NCBI RefSeq assembly: GCF_000744705.1
Contig: NZ_JQML01000001.1
Location: forward strand, 6,396,017-6,460,016
Source: Streptacidiphilus albus JL83
GTDB taxonomy: Bacteria > Actinomycetota > Actinomycetes > Streptomycetales > Streptomycetaceae
Reading direction: 5' to 3'
DNA length: 64,000 bases
The stretch's first letter is position 1; every line of letters starts with the position of its first letter. Shown here piece after piece: positions 8,588-14,490 of the stretch. A model generated the notes under the pieces. The model was not told where the DNA came from, ran no database searches, and worked only from the letters and a program-made list of their open reading frames with translations. Position numbers and translations under genes: made by a program.

Positions 8588-10297
8588 TCATTCCCGGCCC
8601 CGGTCGGCGGCGACCCGGTCGGAGGGAACCCGGTCCGCGGCGACCCGCTCGGCACTGCCGCGGTCCGCCGGTCCCCGGGAGCGGCCGCCACCGGCGGTCC
8701 GGGCCGAGGCCCGCGCCGACGCCCGGGTGGGGGTGGCGGCGCGCGGGGTGGGCAGCTCCGCGTGGCTGCCCCGGGCGCGGTCGGCCAGGGTCCACAGGTC
8801 GTCCGGATGGCAGCCGCGCAGCGCCGCGACCAGGTGCCCGTCCGGGCGGATCAGCAGCACCGTGTGCGGGACCGCCCCCGGGTAGGCCTCGGTGACCAGC
8901 AGTTCCGCCGGTAGCGGCAGGCTCTCGGTGGCCTCGGTGAGCTGCGGCATCAGGCCCGCGCCGAGCCAGTACTCGCTGGACCACACCGCCGTTCCGGGGG
9001 CGACCAGGACCACCAGGAACCCGCGTCCCAGCCGGGCCCGGAGCCGGTCGGCGCTGCCGTCCAGGCCGACCACCGGCACGTCGGTGACCAGTACGCCGGG
9101 ACTGGTGGGGGAGAGCGAGGGGCTGAGCGCGGCCCGCCCGCCGTCCGGGTAGGCCGGGGCCGAGCCGAGCCGGCCGGTGCCGAGGCTGCCGTCCGACAGC
9201 AGGGCCGCGTTGCGGCGCAGCGAGCCGGAGAGCACGCTGCGCCGGGCTTCCAGCAGCGGCGTGCTGGGCTGCAGCAGCGGCCGGGCCTGGTCGACCGAGC
9301 GCAGCCGGGCGATGACCGAGCCGCGCCGCTCCTGCTGGTAGCTGGTGAGCAGTTGCTCGGGGGCGCAGTTGTGCCAGACCAGGGCGAGCTTCCAGGCGAG
9401 GTTGTCGGCGTCGCGCAGCCCCTCGTCCAGGTTCTGCATGCCCAGCGAGCCGAGCAGGTGCGCGGCGTCGCCGGCCAGGAACACCCGCCCGGACTGGAAG
9501 CGCGCGGCCAGCCGCTGCTGGACCAGGTAGTCGGTGCTGGCGATCAGCTCGTAGGGCGGCACCGCGCCGTCGTTCCAGCCGGCCAGGGTCGCCCGCAGGT
9601 GTTCGACCAGCGCGTCCGGGGTGAGCGCCGGCTGCCGGACCGGCAGCCGCCAGTCGAGCCGCCAGACGCCGTCCGGCAGCGGGCGGGCGGTGGCCTCTCG
9701 GCTCCCCGCCGTCTGCGGCGGGTCGCGGTGCAGCCGGGCCTCGCCGGGGAAGGGCAGGTCGGTCCGGACGGTGGCGACCGCGTAGTGGTCGGCGGCGGCG
9801 TGTCCGGGGAAGCGGATCTTCAGCTGCCGGCGCACCGTCGACCGCGGCCCGTCGCAGCCGACCAGCTGGCTGCCGCGCCACCAGGTGCGCTCGGTACGGA
9901 CGTTGACCCCGTCCGGGTCCTGTTCCAGCTCGGCGACGGCGGAGTCGTGGACCAGCTGCACCAGCGGCGAGGCCGAGACGGCGTCCCGCAGTCCGCGCTG
10001 CAGCCGGTGCTGGGAGAGGTGCAGCACCTTGCCCGGGTCGAGCGGCAGGTGCGCCAGTTCGCGGTTGCGGCGCAGCGTGCGCCAGCCGTTCCAGCTGTAG
10101 CCGTCGGCGGCGACCCGCTGGTAGCCGACGCGGGCCAGCAGGTCGATGGTGTCGGCGCGGAGCACGCTGGAACGGACGCCCTCGGGGTGCACGCCGCTGC
10201 CCTCGTCCAGGACCACGGTCGGCACCTGGTGCCGGGCGAGGGCCAGGGCCAGGGTCAGGCCGACCGGACCGGCGCCGGCGATGATCACGGGATCCAC
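8588..10297 (-). CDS. FAD-dependent aromatic hydroxylase (PheA/TfdB family)
   Basis: This 569-residue flavoprotein monooxygenase has the dinucleotide-binding start IIAGAGPVGLTLALALA, the VGCDGPRSTVRRQL (DG) motif, and the VFLAGDAAHLLGSLGMQNL (GD) motif, the pattern of class A NAD(P)H-dependent hydroxylases acting on phenols and polyketide aromatics. A thioredoxin-fold C-terminal domain follows. The last 35 residues are Arg/Ala/Asp repeats (variants of VAADR). The GTG at 10297 has a strong AAGGAGGG six bases upstream; earlier in-frame codons lack one. It stands alone, so the substrate is unknown. Confidence 0.88.
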   Translation of the reverse strand: MDPVIIAGAGPVGLTLALALARHQVPTVVLDEGSGVHPEGVRSSVLRADTIDLLARVGYQRVAADGYSWNGWRTLRRNRELAHLPLDPGKVLHLSQHRLQRGLRDAVSASPLVQLVHDSAVAELEQDPDGVNVRTERTWWRGSQLVGCDGPRSTVRRQLKIRFPGHAAADHYAVATVRTDLPFPGEARLHRDPPQTAGSREATARPLPDGVWRLDWRLPVRQPALTPDALVEHLRATLAGWNDGAVPPYELIASTDYLVQQRLAARFQSGRVFLAGDAAHLLGSLGMQNLDEGLRDADNLAWKLALVWHNCAPEQLLTSYQQERRGSVIARLRSVDQARPLLQPSTPLLEARRSVLSGSLRRNAALLSDGSLGTGRLGSAPAYPDGGRAALSPSLSPTSPGVLVTDVPVVGLDGSADRLRARLGRGFLVVLVAPGTAVWSSEYWLGAGLMPQLTEATESLPLPAELLVTEAYPGAVPHTVLLIRPDGHLVAALRGCHPDDLWTLADRARGSHAELPTPRAATPTRASARASARTAGGGRSRGPADRGSAERVAADRVPSDRVAADRGRE

Positions 10298-10444
10298 GGC
10301 CGTCCCTCCTTGGACGTGCGGGTTCCGCCACGGGCTGCGCCAGTCATAACGAGCACTGCAACAGATCAGCTGGTGCGACGTCAAGCAGCAACGGGTGTAC
10401 GCCGGTTCGTGGCGCGCTCGGACGCGCGCCGCCGCAGGTGCATG

Positions 10445-11182
10445 TCAGCGCAGTCGGGCCCGGGCCAGGTAGTCCTGCGCTCGGGAGGTGCGCGGGGTGG
10501 TGAAGAACTCGTCCGGCGAGGACTGCTCGATGATCCGCCCGCCGTCCATGAAGACCACGCGGTCGGCGGTGGAGCGGGCGAAGCCCAGTTCGTCGGTGGC
10601 GGCCAGCAGGGTCATGCCCGCCGCGGCCAGCTCGCGCGCCAGCTCCGGGGAGAGCACCGGGACCGGCTCGTCGAACAGCAGCAGCTTGGGCTCCCCGGCC
10701 AGCGCCCGCGCGGTCGCCACCCGCCGCTGCTCCTCCTCCGACAGCTCCCAGGGGTACCGGGCCTCGTGCTGGGCGACCTCGAACTGCTCCAGCAGGGCGT
10801 GCGCCCGGCGCTTCGCCCCCGGGGTGGCCGGCTGCCACCAGCGCAGCCGGGCGAGGGCGACGTTCTCCAGCACGGTGCTGTTGGCGGTGAGGTCGAACGG
10901 CGGGACCACCACGCCGATGCCGGCCCGCGCCCGGGCCAGCAGCCGGCCGCGCCGGGGCAGGGCCTGGCCGTCGAAGGTGATCCGGCCCGAGTCGATCCGC
11001 TCCCGGCCGTTGATCGCCCGGCAGAGCAGCGACTTCCCGGAGTCGGCCGGGCCGAGCACCGCGACCACCTCGCCCCGGCCCAGGTCGAGGTCGATGTCGT
11101 TGAGCACCTGCCGCATGCCGACGTGCTTGCTGACACCTCGCAGCTGCAGCAGCGAGCCGGTCTCGGCCGCGTGCTGCGCCAT
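10445..11182 (-). CDS. gluA: GluA-like ABC ATPase with degenerate catalytic motifs
   Basis: The overall sequence aligns well with GluA, the ATPase of the GluABCD glutamate importer, for example DIDLDLGRGEVVAVLGP and TADRVVFMDGGRIIE. Walker A (GPADSGKS) and Walker B (LLLFDEP) are kept. However, the Q-loop reads VVVPPFDL instead of VFQ-FNL, the signature LSGGQ is LSEEE, the D-loop SALD is PVLS, the switch histidine of THEMGFAR is aspartate (TDELGFAR), and about seven residues are missing before it. No gluB, gluC or gluD lies beside it. It probably cannot run a normal ATPase cycle. The frame is otherwise intact. Confidence 0.85.
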   Translation of the reverse strand: MAQHAAETGSLLQLRGVSKHVGMRQVLNDIDLDLGRGEVVAVLGPADSGKSLLCRAINGRERIDSGRITFDGQALPRRGRLLARARAGIGVVVPPFDLTANSTVLENVALARLRWWQPATPGAKRRAHALLEQFEVAQHEARYPWELSEEEQRRVATARALAGEPKLLLFDEPVPVLSPELARELAAAGMTLLAATDELGFARSTADRVVFMDGGRIIEQSSPDEFFTTPRTSRAQDYLARARLR

Positions 11183-11452
11183 CACAGGGCTCCAAGGGGA
11201 TCGGGACGGGAACCGGCGGCGACGGGGGCTCCCACGTCGTCGGTTTCGAAGACCAACGATATGCCCGCTGTGTGCGGTCCTTCCGGTTTCTGAGCTGGAT
11301 TTGAGGATTCTGGCCTGCTGATCGTCGCAGCTGGGTAACGGTCCACCCACCGGACGGCGGCAGCTCTTGACCTCGGGGGGTCCTCCGGGGTGGGGTCTAG
11401 TAGCCGCCGACCGGCCCGACACCCCACAGGACGAAGCAACAGGAGAGACGAC

Positions 11453-12223
11453 ATGCGCCTGCTCCTCGTGGAGGACGACGACCATGTGGCGGCCGCGCTG
11501 GTCACGGTCCTCACCAAGCACGGTTTCGAGGTACGCCACGCCCGCACCGGCAACGAGGCGCTGGACGCCCTCGTCCCCGACGGCCGCGGCCCCTACCGGG
11601 TGGTGCTGCTCGACCTGGGGCTGCCCGACCGGGACGGCTTCGACGTCTGCGGACAGATCCGGCACCGCGGCGGCATTCCGGTGATCATGGTCACCGCCCG
11701 CTCCGACATCAACTCCCGCATCCACGGTCTGAACCTCGGCGCGGACGACTACGTCGTCAAGCCGTACGACATGGGCGAGCTGCTGGCCCGGATCCACGCC
11801 GTCGCCCGGCGCGGGGTCGCTCCGGCCGATCCGGGCGTGCCGCCCGCCGAGCGGGAGACGACGGCCGCGCGGCTGAGCCGGCTCAGCGGCCTGGTGCTGG
11901 ACGCCGACGCCCGCCGGGCCCTGGTCCACGGTCGCCCGGTGGCGCTGACCCGCAAGGAGTACGACCTGCTCGGGCTGCTGGCGCAGAGCCCCGGTGTGGT
12001 CATCCGCCGCGAGCAGATCATCAGCGAGGTCTGGCGCAGCAGCTGGGAGGGGACCGCCCGGACGCTGGAGGTGCACGTCGCCTCGCTGCGGCAGAAGCTG
12101 GCGGTGCCTTCGCTGATCGAGACCGTGCGCGGGATCGGCTACCGGCTGGTGCTGCCGCCGGAGCCGACGGAGCGGGCCGAGCCGGCCGGCCCCGGCCCCG
12201 GCCCCGGCCCCGGCCCCGGCTGA
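11453..12223 (+). CDS. gluR: OmpR-family response regulator (GluR-type)
   Basis: The receiver domain (residues 1-115) has the acidic pair EDDD, the phospho-acceptor aspartate in LLDLGLPDRDGF, and the lysine of DDYVVKPYD. The C-terminal OmpR/PhoB winged helix contains LTRKEYDLLGLLAQSPG and the recognition region RTLEVHVASLRQKL. A run of GP repeats forms the last ten residues. The ATG at 11453 is preceded by AGGAGAG. Position next to a gluA-like gene matches GluR of S. coelicolor, which controls glutamate uptake; assignment of the signal is by synteny. The stop overlaps the kinase start as TGATG. Confidence 0.88.
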   Translation: MRLLLVEDDDHVAAALVTVLTKHGFEVRHARTGNEALDALVPDGRGPYRVVLLDLGLPDRDGFDVCGQIRHRGGIPVIMVTARSDINSRIHGLNLGADDYVVKPYDMGELLARIHAVARRGVAPADPGVPPAERETTAARLSRLSGLVLDADARRALVHGRPVALTRKEYDLLGLLAQSPGVVIRREQIISEVWRSSWEGTARTLEVHVASLRQKLAVPSLIETVRGIGYRLVLPPEPTERAEPAGPGPGPGPGPG

Positions 12224-13650
12224 TGCGCACCCGGCTGCTCGGGATCCTGCTCGCGCTGATGGCCTGCGTGCTGGTCGCGCTCGGCCTGCCGCTGGCCGTC
12301 AGCGAGGCCGCGGCCGGCCAGCAGCAGGTGCTGGTGGACCGGATGGACGACACCGCCCGCTTCGCCGAGCTCGCGCAGAACCCGCTCGGCCAGTCCGGCA
12401 CGGCCACCGCGACCGAGCAGCTCCGCACCCTCGACTCGGAGACCGAGCGCTACTACGACGTCTACGGCAGCCCGGTCGGGGTGTTCGAGCTCGACGGCCA
12501 GCCGCTGACCGCCGACCCGGTCTCGTGGACCGACGCCGACCGGGGCATCAGCGCCCGGGCCTTCAGCGAGGCCCTGGACGGTCGGCGCAGCGCCAACCCG
12601 GCGCAGGTCTGGCCGTGGCAGACCGGCCGGATGCTGGTGGTGGCCTCGCCGGTGGTCTGGGACGGCGACGTGGTCGCGGTGGTGGTGACCGAGGCGCCGA
12701 CCGACGCCCTGCGGGCGCTCGAACTGCGGGAGTGGCTGGTGCTCGCGGGCGGCGAGGCGGCGGCCGTGCTGGTGGCCGTGGCCGCGGCGGCGCTGCTGAC
12801 CGGCTGGGTGCTGCGTCCGGTCCAGGACCTCGACAAGGTGGCCCACGACATCGCCACCGGGCGGCTGGCCTCCCGGGTCGCCCCGGCCGGCGGGCCGCCC
12901 GAACTGCGGCGGCTGGCACGGGCCTTCAACGAGATGGCGGACCATGTCGAGCTGGTCCTGGACCAGCAGCGGGCGTTCGTCGCGGACGCCTCGCACCAGC
13001 TGCGCAATCCGCTGGCCGCGCTGATGCTCCGGGTCGAGCTGATGGGGATGGAGCTGCCGGAGGGCACCGAGGCGGAGCTGGCCGGCGTCCGGGTCGAGGG
13101 ACGGCGGCTGGCCCAGGTGCTGGACGACCTGCTGGGCCTGGCCGTGGCCGAGCACGCGAGCCCGGCCGGCGGGCCGACCGACCTGGTCCGGCTGGCGGTG
13201 GAACGCGCCGACGGCTGGCGCCCGCTCGGGCTGGAGCGAGGGGTGGAGCTGCGCTGCGAGGTCCCGGACCAGCCGCTCCTGGGGCTGGCCGAACCGGTGG
13301 CCTTCGGCAGCGCGCTGGACGCGGTGGTCGACAATGCGCTGAAGTTCACCCCCCGCGGCGGCCGGGTCACGGTGTCGGTGACGGCCGACGCCGACCAGGT
13401 CGCGGTGGCCGTCGCCGACACCGGCCCGGGGATCACCGAGGAGGAGCGCGAGCGGATCGGCGACCGCTTCTGGCGCAGCCCCAGGCAGCAGAACTCGGAG
13501 GGTTCGGGCCTGGGCCTGTCGATCGCCAGGACCCTGCTCGCGGCCTCCGGCGGCACGCTGACCTTCGCCCCGCGCGAGCCGGGCGCCGAGGCCGGTGGGA
13601 CCGGCGGTCCCACCGGGCTGGTCGTCACCCTGGCCGTGCCGAGGGCGTGA
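12223..13650 (+). CDS. gluK: Sensor histidine kinase (GluK-type)
   Basis: This 475-residue membrane kinase has an N-terminal helix, a periplasmic loop of about 140 residues, a second helix near residues 170-195, a HAMP linker (LRPVQDLDKVAHDIATG), an H-box with DASHQLRNPLAAL, an N-box DAVVDNALKF, and G-boxes DTGPGIT and EGSGLGLSIA. All catalytic elements are present. It would autophosphorylate and pass phosphate to the adjacent regulator. Synteny points to GluK, a glutamate sensor, although the transporter it would control is incomplete here. Confidence 0.88.
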   Translation: MRTRLLGILLALMACVLVALGLPLAVSEAAAGQQQVLVDRMDDTARFAELAQNPLGQSGTATATEQLRTLDSETERYYDVYGSPVGVFELDGQPLTADPVSWTDADRGISARAFSEALDGRRSANPAQVWPWQTGRMLVVASPVVWDGDVVAVVVTEAPTDALRALELREWLVLAGGEAAAVLVAVAAAALLTGWVLRPVQDLDKVAHDIATGRLASRVAPAGGPPELRRLARAFNEMADHVELVLDQQRAFVADASHQLRNPLAALMLRVELMGMELPEGTEAELAGVRVEGRRLAQVLDDLLGLAVAEHASPAGGPTDLVRLAVERADGWRPLGLERGVELRCEVPDQPLLGLAEPVAFGSALDAVVDNALKFTPRGGRVTVSVTADADQVAVAVADTGPGITEEERERIGDRFWRSPRQQNSEGSGLGLSIARTLLAASGGTLTFAPREPGAEAGGTGGPTGLVVTLAVPRA

Positions 13651-13680: not shown

Positions 13681-14490
13681 TCACACCCGGCACAGCACCT
13701 CGCCGTGCGGGATGGTGAACCAGGCGTCCTCGTCGGCGGCCCAGGTCAGCCAGGCCTGCGACAGCCGGGCCAGGTCCTCCGGGGTCGCCAGGCCGCTCTC
13801 GACCGCGCGCTCGGACAGCGGGGCGGTGACGATCCGCTCCGACCACAGCCCGCCCCACCAGGCGCGCTGGACGTCACCGGTGTAGCACCAGGTGGAGGCG
13901 GTGGAGGTGATGTCGGTGAAGCCCGCCTCGCGGGCCCAGGCGCGCATCCGGCGTCCGGCGTCCGGCTCGCCGCCGTTGTCGCGGGCGACGGCGCAGTACA
14001 GCTGCTGCCACTCGGTCAGGTCCGGGATCTCCGGGTACCAGAAGAAGGCGCTGTAGTCCGAGTCGCGGGCGGCGACCACGCCGCCGGGCCGACAGACCCG
14101 GCGCATCTCGCGCAGTGCCTGGACCGGGTCGGCGACGTGCTGCAGCACCTGGTGGGCGTGGACCACGTCGAAGGAGTCGTCGGCGAAGGGCAGCGCGTGC
14201 ACGTCGCCGACCTCGAAGGCCACATTGGTGACGCCCTCCTCGGCCGCGTGCTGGGCGGCCTGCTCCAGGATGCCGGGCGCGTTCTCCAGCCCGGTCACCC
14301 GGCCGGGGGCGACCAGTTTGGCCAGGTCGGCGGTGATGGTGCCGGGTCCGCAGCCCACGTCCAGCAGTTCCTGGCCCGGCTTCAGCTCGGGCAGCAGGTA
14401 GGCGGCCGAGTTCTGCGCGGTGCGCCAGGTGTGGGAGCGCAGCACGGCGGCGTGGTGGCCGTGGGTGTAGGTGGCGTTCTTCGCAGACAT
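13681..14490 (-). CDS. SAM-dependent class I methyltransferase
   Basis: The protein of 269 residues has the UbiE/Methyltransf_11 pattern: motif I LLDVGCGPGTITADLA, motif II around VGDVHALPFADDSFDVVHA, and LREMRRVCRPGGVVAARDSD. The C-terminal third contains conserved Trp/Asp residues seen in streptomycete homologues, but the substrate is unknown. It faces away from the hydrolase at 14686, leaving a 195-bp divergent control region that contains a small inverted repeat TCTCG-N5-CGAGA (14548-14562). Confidence 0.88.
   Translation of the reverse strand: MSAKNATYTHGHHAAVLRSHTWRTAQNSAAYLLPELKPGQELLDVGCGPGTITADLAKLVAPGRVTGLENAPGILEQAAQHAAEEGVTNVAFEVGDVHALPFADDSFDVVHAHQVLQHVADPVQALREMRRVCRPGGVVAARDSDYSAFFWYPEIPDLTEWQQLYCAVARDNGGEPDAGRRMRAWAREAGFTDITSTASTWCYTGDVQRAWWGGLWSERIVTAPLSERAVESGLATPEDLARLSQAWLTWAADEDAWFTIPHGEVLCRV

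Follow-up and report, generated by a model that had tools for sequence, protein, structure and literature searches.

The locus considered here raises the question of whether an ABC transporter ATPase that has kept its full length, with most of its catalytic motifs replaced, is a gene in early decay or a protein with a new role, e.g. as a regulatory partner of the sensor kinase encoded nearby. These were the two possibilities offered in a preliminary description made from the letters alone. The window, i.e. the whole stretch of 64,000 nucleotides that was analysed, comes from the genome of Streptacidiphilus albus JL83 (one contig, 9.9 Mb). We refer to the gene as degenerate gluA (dgluA) and to its product as dGluA; the features around it are the following.

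8588-10297, minus strand: FAD-dependent monooxygenase, downstream of dgluA, with its own conserved promoter (TTGACG, 10379-10384)
10445-11182, minus strand: dgluA, 245 aa, ATG start, GGAG ribosome-binding site just upstream
10460-10585, minus strand: conserved C-terminal block (residues 200-241, GFARSTADRVVFMDGGRIIEQSSPDEFFTTPRTSRAQDYLAR), omega ~0.094
10721-10969, minus strand: eroded Q-loop, helical subdomain and signature (residues 72-154), omega ~0.26
10973-11152, minus strand: conserved N-terminal core (residues 11-70) with the first strands and Walker A (GPADSGKS, residues 44-51), genus-wide omega ~0.085
11256-11261, minus strand: -10-like element of dgluA, TATCGT, separated from the GluR-type box by 27-28 nt in the genomes compared
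11289-11305, no strand assigned: GluR-type direct repeat TCTGAGCTGGATTTGAG, 11-bp period, pattern perfect in 14/14 Streptacidiphilus
11367-11372, plus strand: -35-like element of gluR, TTGACC, in a conserved upstream block
11453-12223, plus strand: gluR, OmpR-type response regulator
12223-13650, plus strand: gluK, sensor histidine kinase (HAMP, HisKA, HATPase_c)

Altered residues of dGluA

Translation of the dgluA frame was uninterrupted over all 245 residues, as had been described, and the GC content by codon position (0.77/0.50/0.98) was of coding type. The protein is a homologue of the ABC nucleotide-binding domain (PF00005, E-value 7e-24, 85 bits). Against the NCBIfam model for GlnQ (NF007027) it scored 181.7 bits, far under the equivalog cut-off of 379 bits; this score alone is weak evidence, as the model was built for GlnQ and not for GluA. 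The solved structure nearest by sequence was 4u00. Together with 2olj and 1b0u, also importer ATPases, it matched dGluA both by sequence and in a Foldseek search, where importer ATPases ranked first; the query there was a low-confidence AlphaFold model (three sequences as input, mean pLDDT 61), too weak for surface analysis. dGluA is nearest to ATPase subunits of the glutamate/glutamine-type importers. A search of plasmids for relatives of dGluA gave one match, at 52%, the level of canonical GluA, and none closer.

Alignment to canonical GluA bore out the replacement of the Q-loop glutamine, the LSGGQ signature, the D-loop and the switch histidine: Gln94 is changed to Pro, residues 147-151 read LSEEE, residues 175-178 read PVLS in place of SALD and His197 is changed to Asp. 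Walker A and Walker B had both been said to remain. This holds for Walker B (LLLFDEP, residues 167-173), which is intact with its catalytic Glu, while Walker A (GPADSGKSL) keeps the loose GxxxxGKS pattern only, with G47D at the inner glycine and T52L after GKS; both sites are invariant in the rest of the genus, where Walker A is intact in the 12 other readable copies. Three further points had escaped the preliminary description: the aromatic residue of the A-loop is gone (KHFG to KHVG, residue 21), a 7-residue deletion follows the D-loop, and gluB, gluC and gluD are absent. Judged from its motifs, dGluA is likely to be catalytically dead. It is known that some ABC proteins function with one degenerate site.

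The locus and its promoter across relatives

In S. coelicolor GluK and GluR sense glutamate and control gluABCD (SCO5774-5777, with GluR-GluK encoded by SCO5778/5779; PMC9739842), and gluA occupies the position orthologous to that of dgluA, divergent from gluR. The two ATPases have ~50% identity and the Walker A/B core in common, and canonical GluABCD relatives have the same promoter architecture with a direct repeat. What sets dGluA apart is the absence of GluB, GluC and GluD, the loss of Q-loop, signature, D-loop, switch His and A-loop aromatic, and the 7-residue deletion.

We compared 14 Streptacidiphilus genomes, 13 of them with a readable gluA copy and including two sister genomes (S. jeojiense NRRL B-24555 and S. 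carbonis NBRC 100919), with 94 loci outside the genus, 88 of which carry gluA. The Streptomyces-type order is FAD monooxygenase<gluD<gluC<gluB<gluA, divergent from gluR>gluK. None of the 14 Streptacidiphilus genomes has gluB, gluC or gluD at the locus, and gluA sits alone between the FAD monooxygenase gene and gluR-gluK; thus, no transporter is left there for the ATPase to drive. The FAD monooxygenase gene is syntenic across the family. A gene for a SAM-methyltransferase (window 13681-14490, minus strand), between gluK and a hydrolase gene, was found in the genus only in G000, G001, G004, G006, G009, G011 and G013.

Outside the genus, 84 of the 94 loci carry all four genes, two have no recognisable gluB, two have gluA alone and six have lost the whole set. 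The loci with gluA, gluC and gluD and no recognisable gluB (L178 and L179) belong to two genomes of one genus. At the six loci with gluABCD wholly lost (L143, L144, L145, L191, L193 and L205) gluR-gluK is kept; the two-component system therefore outlives its transporter. The exact direct repeat is still present at L205, where the loss of gluABCD looks like a recent deletion. The two orphan genes, from G015 and G029 in other genera of the family, resemble dgluA in that gluBCD was lost and gluA kept beside gluR; unlike in dgluA, all their catalytic motifs are intact, and their repeat is weakened, with 1-2 mismatches. The orphan of G029 (L150 9685-10449) is apparently an independent case. Beside the orphan of G015, gluR (L112 8215-9047) appears to be split in two; residues 117-144 are missing and additional sequence separates the parts.

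All seven motifs were present in 88/88 GluA orthologues outside the genus, the two orphans included. In 13/13 readable copies of the genus the A-loop, Q-loop, signature, D-loop and switch-His were absent as scored motifs, while Walker A and most of Walker B were retained; this contrast is not a chance one. G009 and G013 have also lost the catalytic Glu of Walker B. Some copies still show individual motif residues, e.g. GG in G001 or a Gln in G002. The switch histidine flagged as present in G012 was a pattern match elsewhere in the protein; the actual switch reads VVSEEP, and the flag was corrected by eye. Large indels were in frame and fell in the helical region, which is largely deleted in G003 and carries an insertion in G012. 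The degenerate copies grouped as a single clade in a FastTree phylogeny, with a support of 0.977, and their sister, at 0.983, was the canonical orphan from G015. The motif loss is ancestral to Streptacidiphilus and not an event in this genome. Loss of gluBCD first and of catalysis second would be the simplest history, although G015 may have lost gluBCD independently.

The region between dgluA and gluR contains a direct repeat with an 11-bp period, TCTGAGnnnGATTTGAG; direct repeats with this period are typical of OmpR-family regulators. The TAnnnT -10 element of dgluA lies 27-28 nt from the repeat in the genus, and the same spacing was observed at canonical loci. Outside the genus the repeat was found at 83 of the 88 loci with gluA versus one of the six without it (Fisher p 3e-5); since it tracks the presence of gluA, we conclude that the repeat serves gluA. 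From its position and architecture, the repeat at 11289-11305 is a putative GluR site. It is the only zero-mismatch site in the 9.9-Mb genome, in a count where imperfect sites would be missed. A copy with one mismatch near the chromosome end (L140, genome position 9864163) is a possible second target.

Conservation of the promoter could have been owed to gluR rather than to gluA; this is disfavoured, as the repeat is absent at five of the six loci without gluA. An origin of this conservation in the monooxygenase gene is disfavoured as well, as that gene has its own conserved promoter; dgluA thus probably forms a transcription unit by itself. The promoter-like block of the monooxygenase gene (TTGACG ... 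TTGCAGT, window 10354-10384, minus strand) is conserved in the Streptacidiphilus genomes compared. Upstream of gluR, the block TCGCAGCTGGGTAACGGTC (window 11325-11343) is strongly conserved in the genus, with TAACGG present in other genera too. The regulatory link suggested in the preliminary description thus stands at the DNA level only, in the exact repeat and the fixed-spacing -10 element of 14/14 genomes and in the association of the repeat with gluA outside the genus.

Selection on dgluA

Values of omega were obtained with a codon model on the tree of neighbouring genes. The tree-wide value for dgluA was ~0.13, with 0.127 for gluK, 0.093 for the FAD monooxygenase gene and 0.084 for gluR. 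Within dgluA we observed 0.085 for the N-terminal core, 0.26 for the Q-loop/helical/signature region, 0.16 for Walker B and 0.094 for the C-terminal block; omega=1 was rejected in each region, the margin being 60 to 540 log units. The deep branches of the genus had raised values of omega, 0.31-0.34. Sites at least 92% conserved made up 35/61 of the N-terminal core, 22/42 of the C-terminal block and 12/83 of the middle of dGluA; the numbers of sites at least 95% conserved in the same regions of canonical GluA were 43, 28 and 50.

The erosion is concentrated in the helical/signature region, which is used for the ATP sandwich and for permease coupling. It is the Q-loop and helical subdomain of an ABC ATPase that the coupling helices of the permease contact (PMC3150292). 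As the eroded part is the receiver of the coupling helices, the pattern is the one expected when an ATPase loses its permease, not its usefulness.

The window's own copy needs separate consideration. In a single-gene test its branch had an omega of 0.57, which fits better than a common omega (2dlnL 9.3) and is not distinguishable from 1. When four neighbouring genes supplied the neutral branch lengths, the value was 0.19, and neutrality was rejected by 69 log units. The window lineage looks faster in gluK and in the monooxygenase gene also, and synonymous divergence in dgluA is difficult to measure at its high GC3 (0.98). There are six private changes at otherwise invariant sites of the window dGluA, two of them in Walker A; this lineage also has the most private changes in the control genes. 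The copy is intact and probably constrained, and selection on it may have been mildly relaxed. A recent onset of decay in this genome is rejected, the degeneration being genus-wide and constrained.

Readings of dGluA function

We consider it fairly probable that dGluA is a pseudo-ATPase kept under the control of GluR and no longer engaged in transport, and that it probably acts in signalling or as an adaptor. As the comparison of loci shows, gluB, gluC and gluD were lost in an ancestor of Streptacidiphilus, with gluA and its GluR-type promoter kept. Probably once the permease was gone, the A-loop, Q-loop, signature, D-loop and switch His were lost and the helical subdomain eroded, the Walker A/B core and the C-terminal block staying under purifying selection, as the alignments and regional omega show. 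Given the S. coelicolor system and the conserved site, glutamate would be sensed by GluK, and phosphorylated GluR would turn on dgluA via the upstream repeat. With no ATP sandwich for transport, dGluA may still bind nucleotide and could act as a soluble adaptor or feedback regulator binding another protein, the leading candidates being GluK/GluR or another amino-acid importer.

GluK is a natural candidate partner by position only. Rate covariation of dGluA with GluK was no stronger than with unrelated neighbours, and the presence of gluRK without any GluA at six loci counts against a general need of the kinase for GluA. No ABC pseudoenzyme associated with a histidine kinase turned up in a search of the literature. 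Precedent for a regulatory side role is provided by MalK, an importer ATPase that also restrains the regulator MalT; MalK differs in being an active enzyme with an additional regulatory domain. In BceAB-BceS (PMC12189002) an ABC component is, as here, genetically tied to a two-component system; however, BceAB is a full transporter in complex with the kinase, whereas dGluA has no permease and its contact with a kinase is hypothetical.

The survival of GluRK at the six loci without GluA and the lack of specific covariation with GluK would also fit a new role of dGluA unrelated to glutamate signalling, with the old GluR promoter simply kept. We regard this as unlikely: every genome sampled in the genus has the regulatory site in perfect form, so that glutamate-dependent expression itself seems to be selected.

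Unlikely, too, is slow decay, with dGluA as a useless leftover of gluABCD that is not yet disrupted. Such a state could account for the lost catalytic residues, for the raised omega on the deep branches of the genus and for the window branch, where omega taken alone does not differ from 1 and two private changes fall in Walker A. Still, no premature stops were observed in the 13 gluA copies of the 13 well-sequenced genomes of the genus, whereas neutral simulation gave 15-26 expected over the 13 terminal branches alone (P of none at most 3e-7). The sole gluA frame break among the 14 genomes, in G006, was put down to sequencing because recX, the RNase Y gene, gluR and gluK are broken in the same region of that assembly. 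Promoter and repeat are exact in 14/14 genomes, though the repeat usually vanishes where gluA is lost. Intact frames, the genus omega of ~0.13 and an erosion confined mostly to one subdomain argue that this is not ordinary decay, and slow decay is already disfavoured for the genus. Of the two possibilities raised at the outset, the new role thus gains and early decay loses: relatives at this locus turned out to be degenerate as well, at a dN/dS of ~0.13, instead of carrying canonical motifs with selection relaxed here.

ABC exporters in which one site is degenerate are familiar, and the window genome contains further ATPases of the importer type and at least one neighbouring gene for a substrate-binding protein. 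That dGluA still works in transport, as a degenerate subunit that shares a distant amino-acid permease with a canonical paralogue (e.g. the one 49% identical at 9.33 Mb), is nevertheless unlikely, as the permease-contacting Q-loop and helical subdomain (PMC3150292) are its least conserved part, largely deleted in G003, and a close paralogue (E<1e-60) was found only in the window genome and G011 among the 14.

The loss of catalytic motifs from an intact gluA is real, genus-wide and better supported than could be known from the single sequence. We would suggest, tentatively, that in Streptacidiphilus as a whole an importer's former motor now serves as the dedicated output of the two-component system that senses glutamate, a glutamate-induced ABC pseudo-ATPase that regulates and does not transport.

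Few enzymes are as conserved as the ABC ATPases; dead, permease-free ones stably kept by selection across a whole genus are unusual. In this family the stages can be read side by side: the full operon, the orphan canonical GluA, the orphan dead GluA and total loss. They make it possible to test for a regulatory function of an importer ATPase separable from ATP hydrolysis, and to ask what a two-component system does once its transporter is gone.
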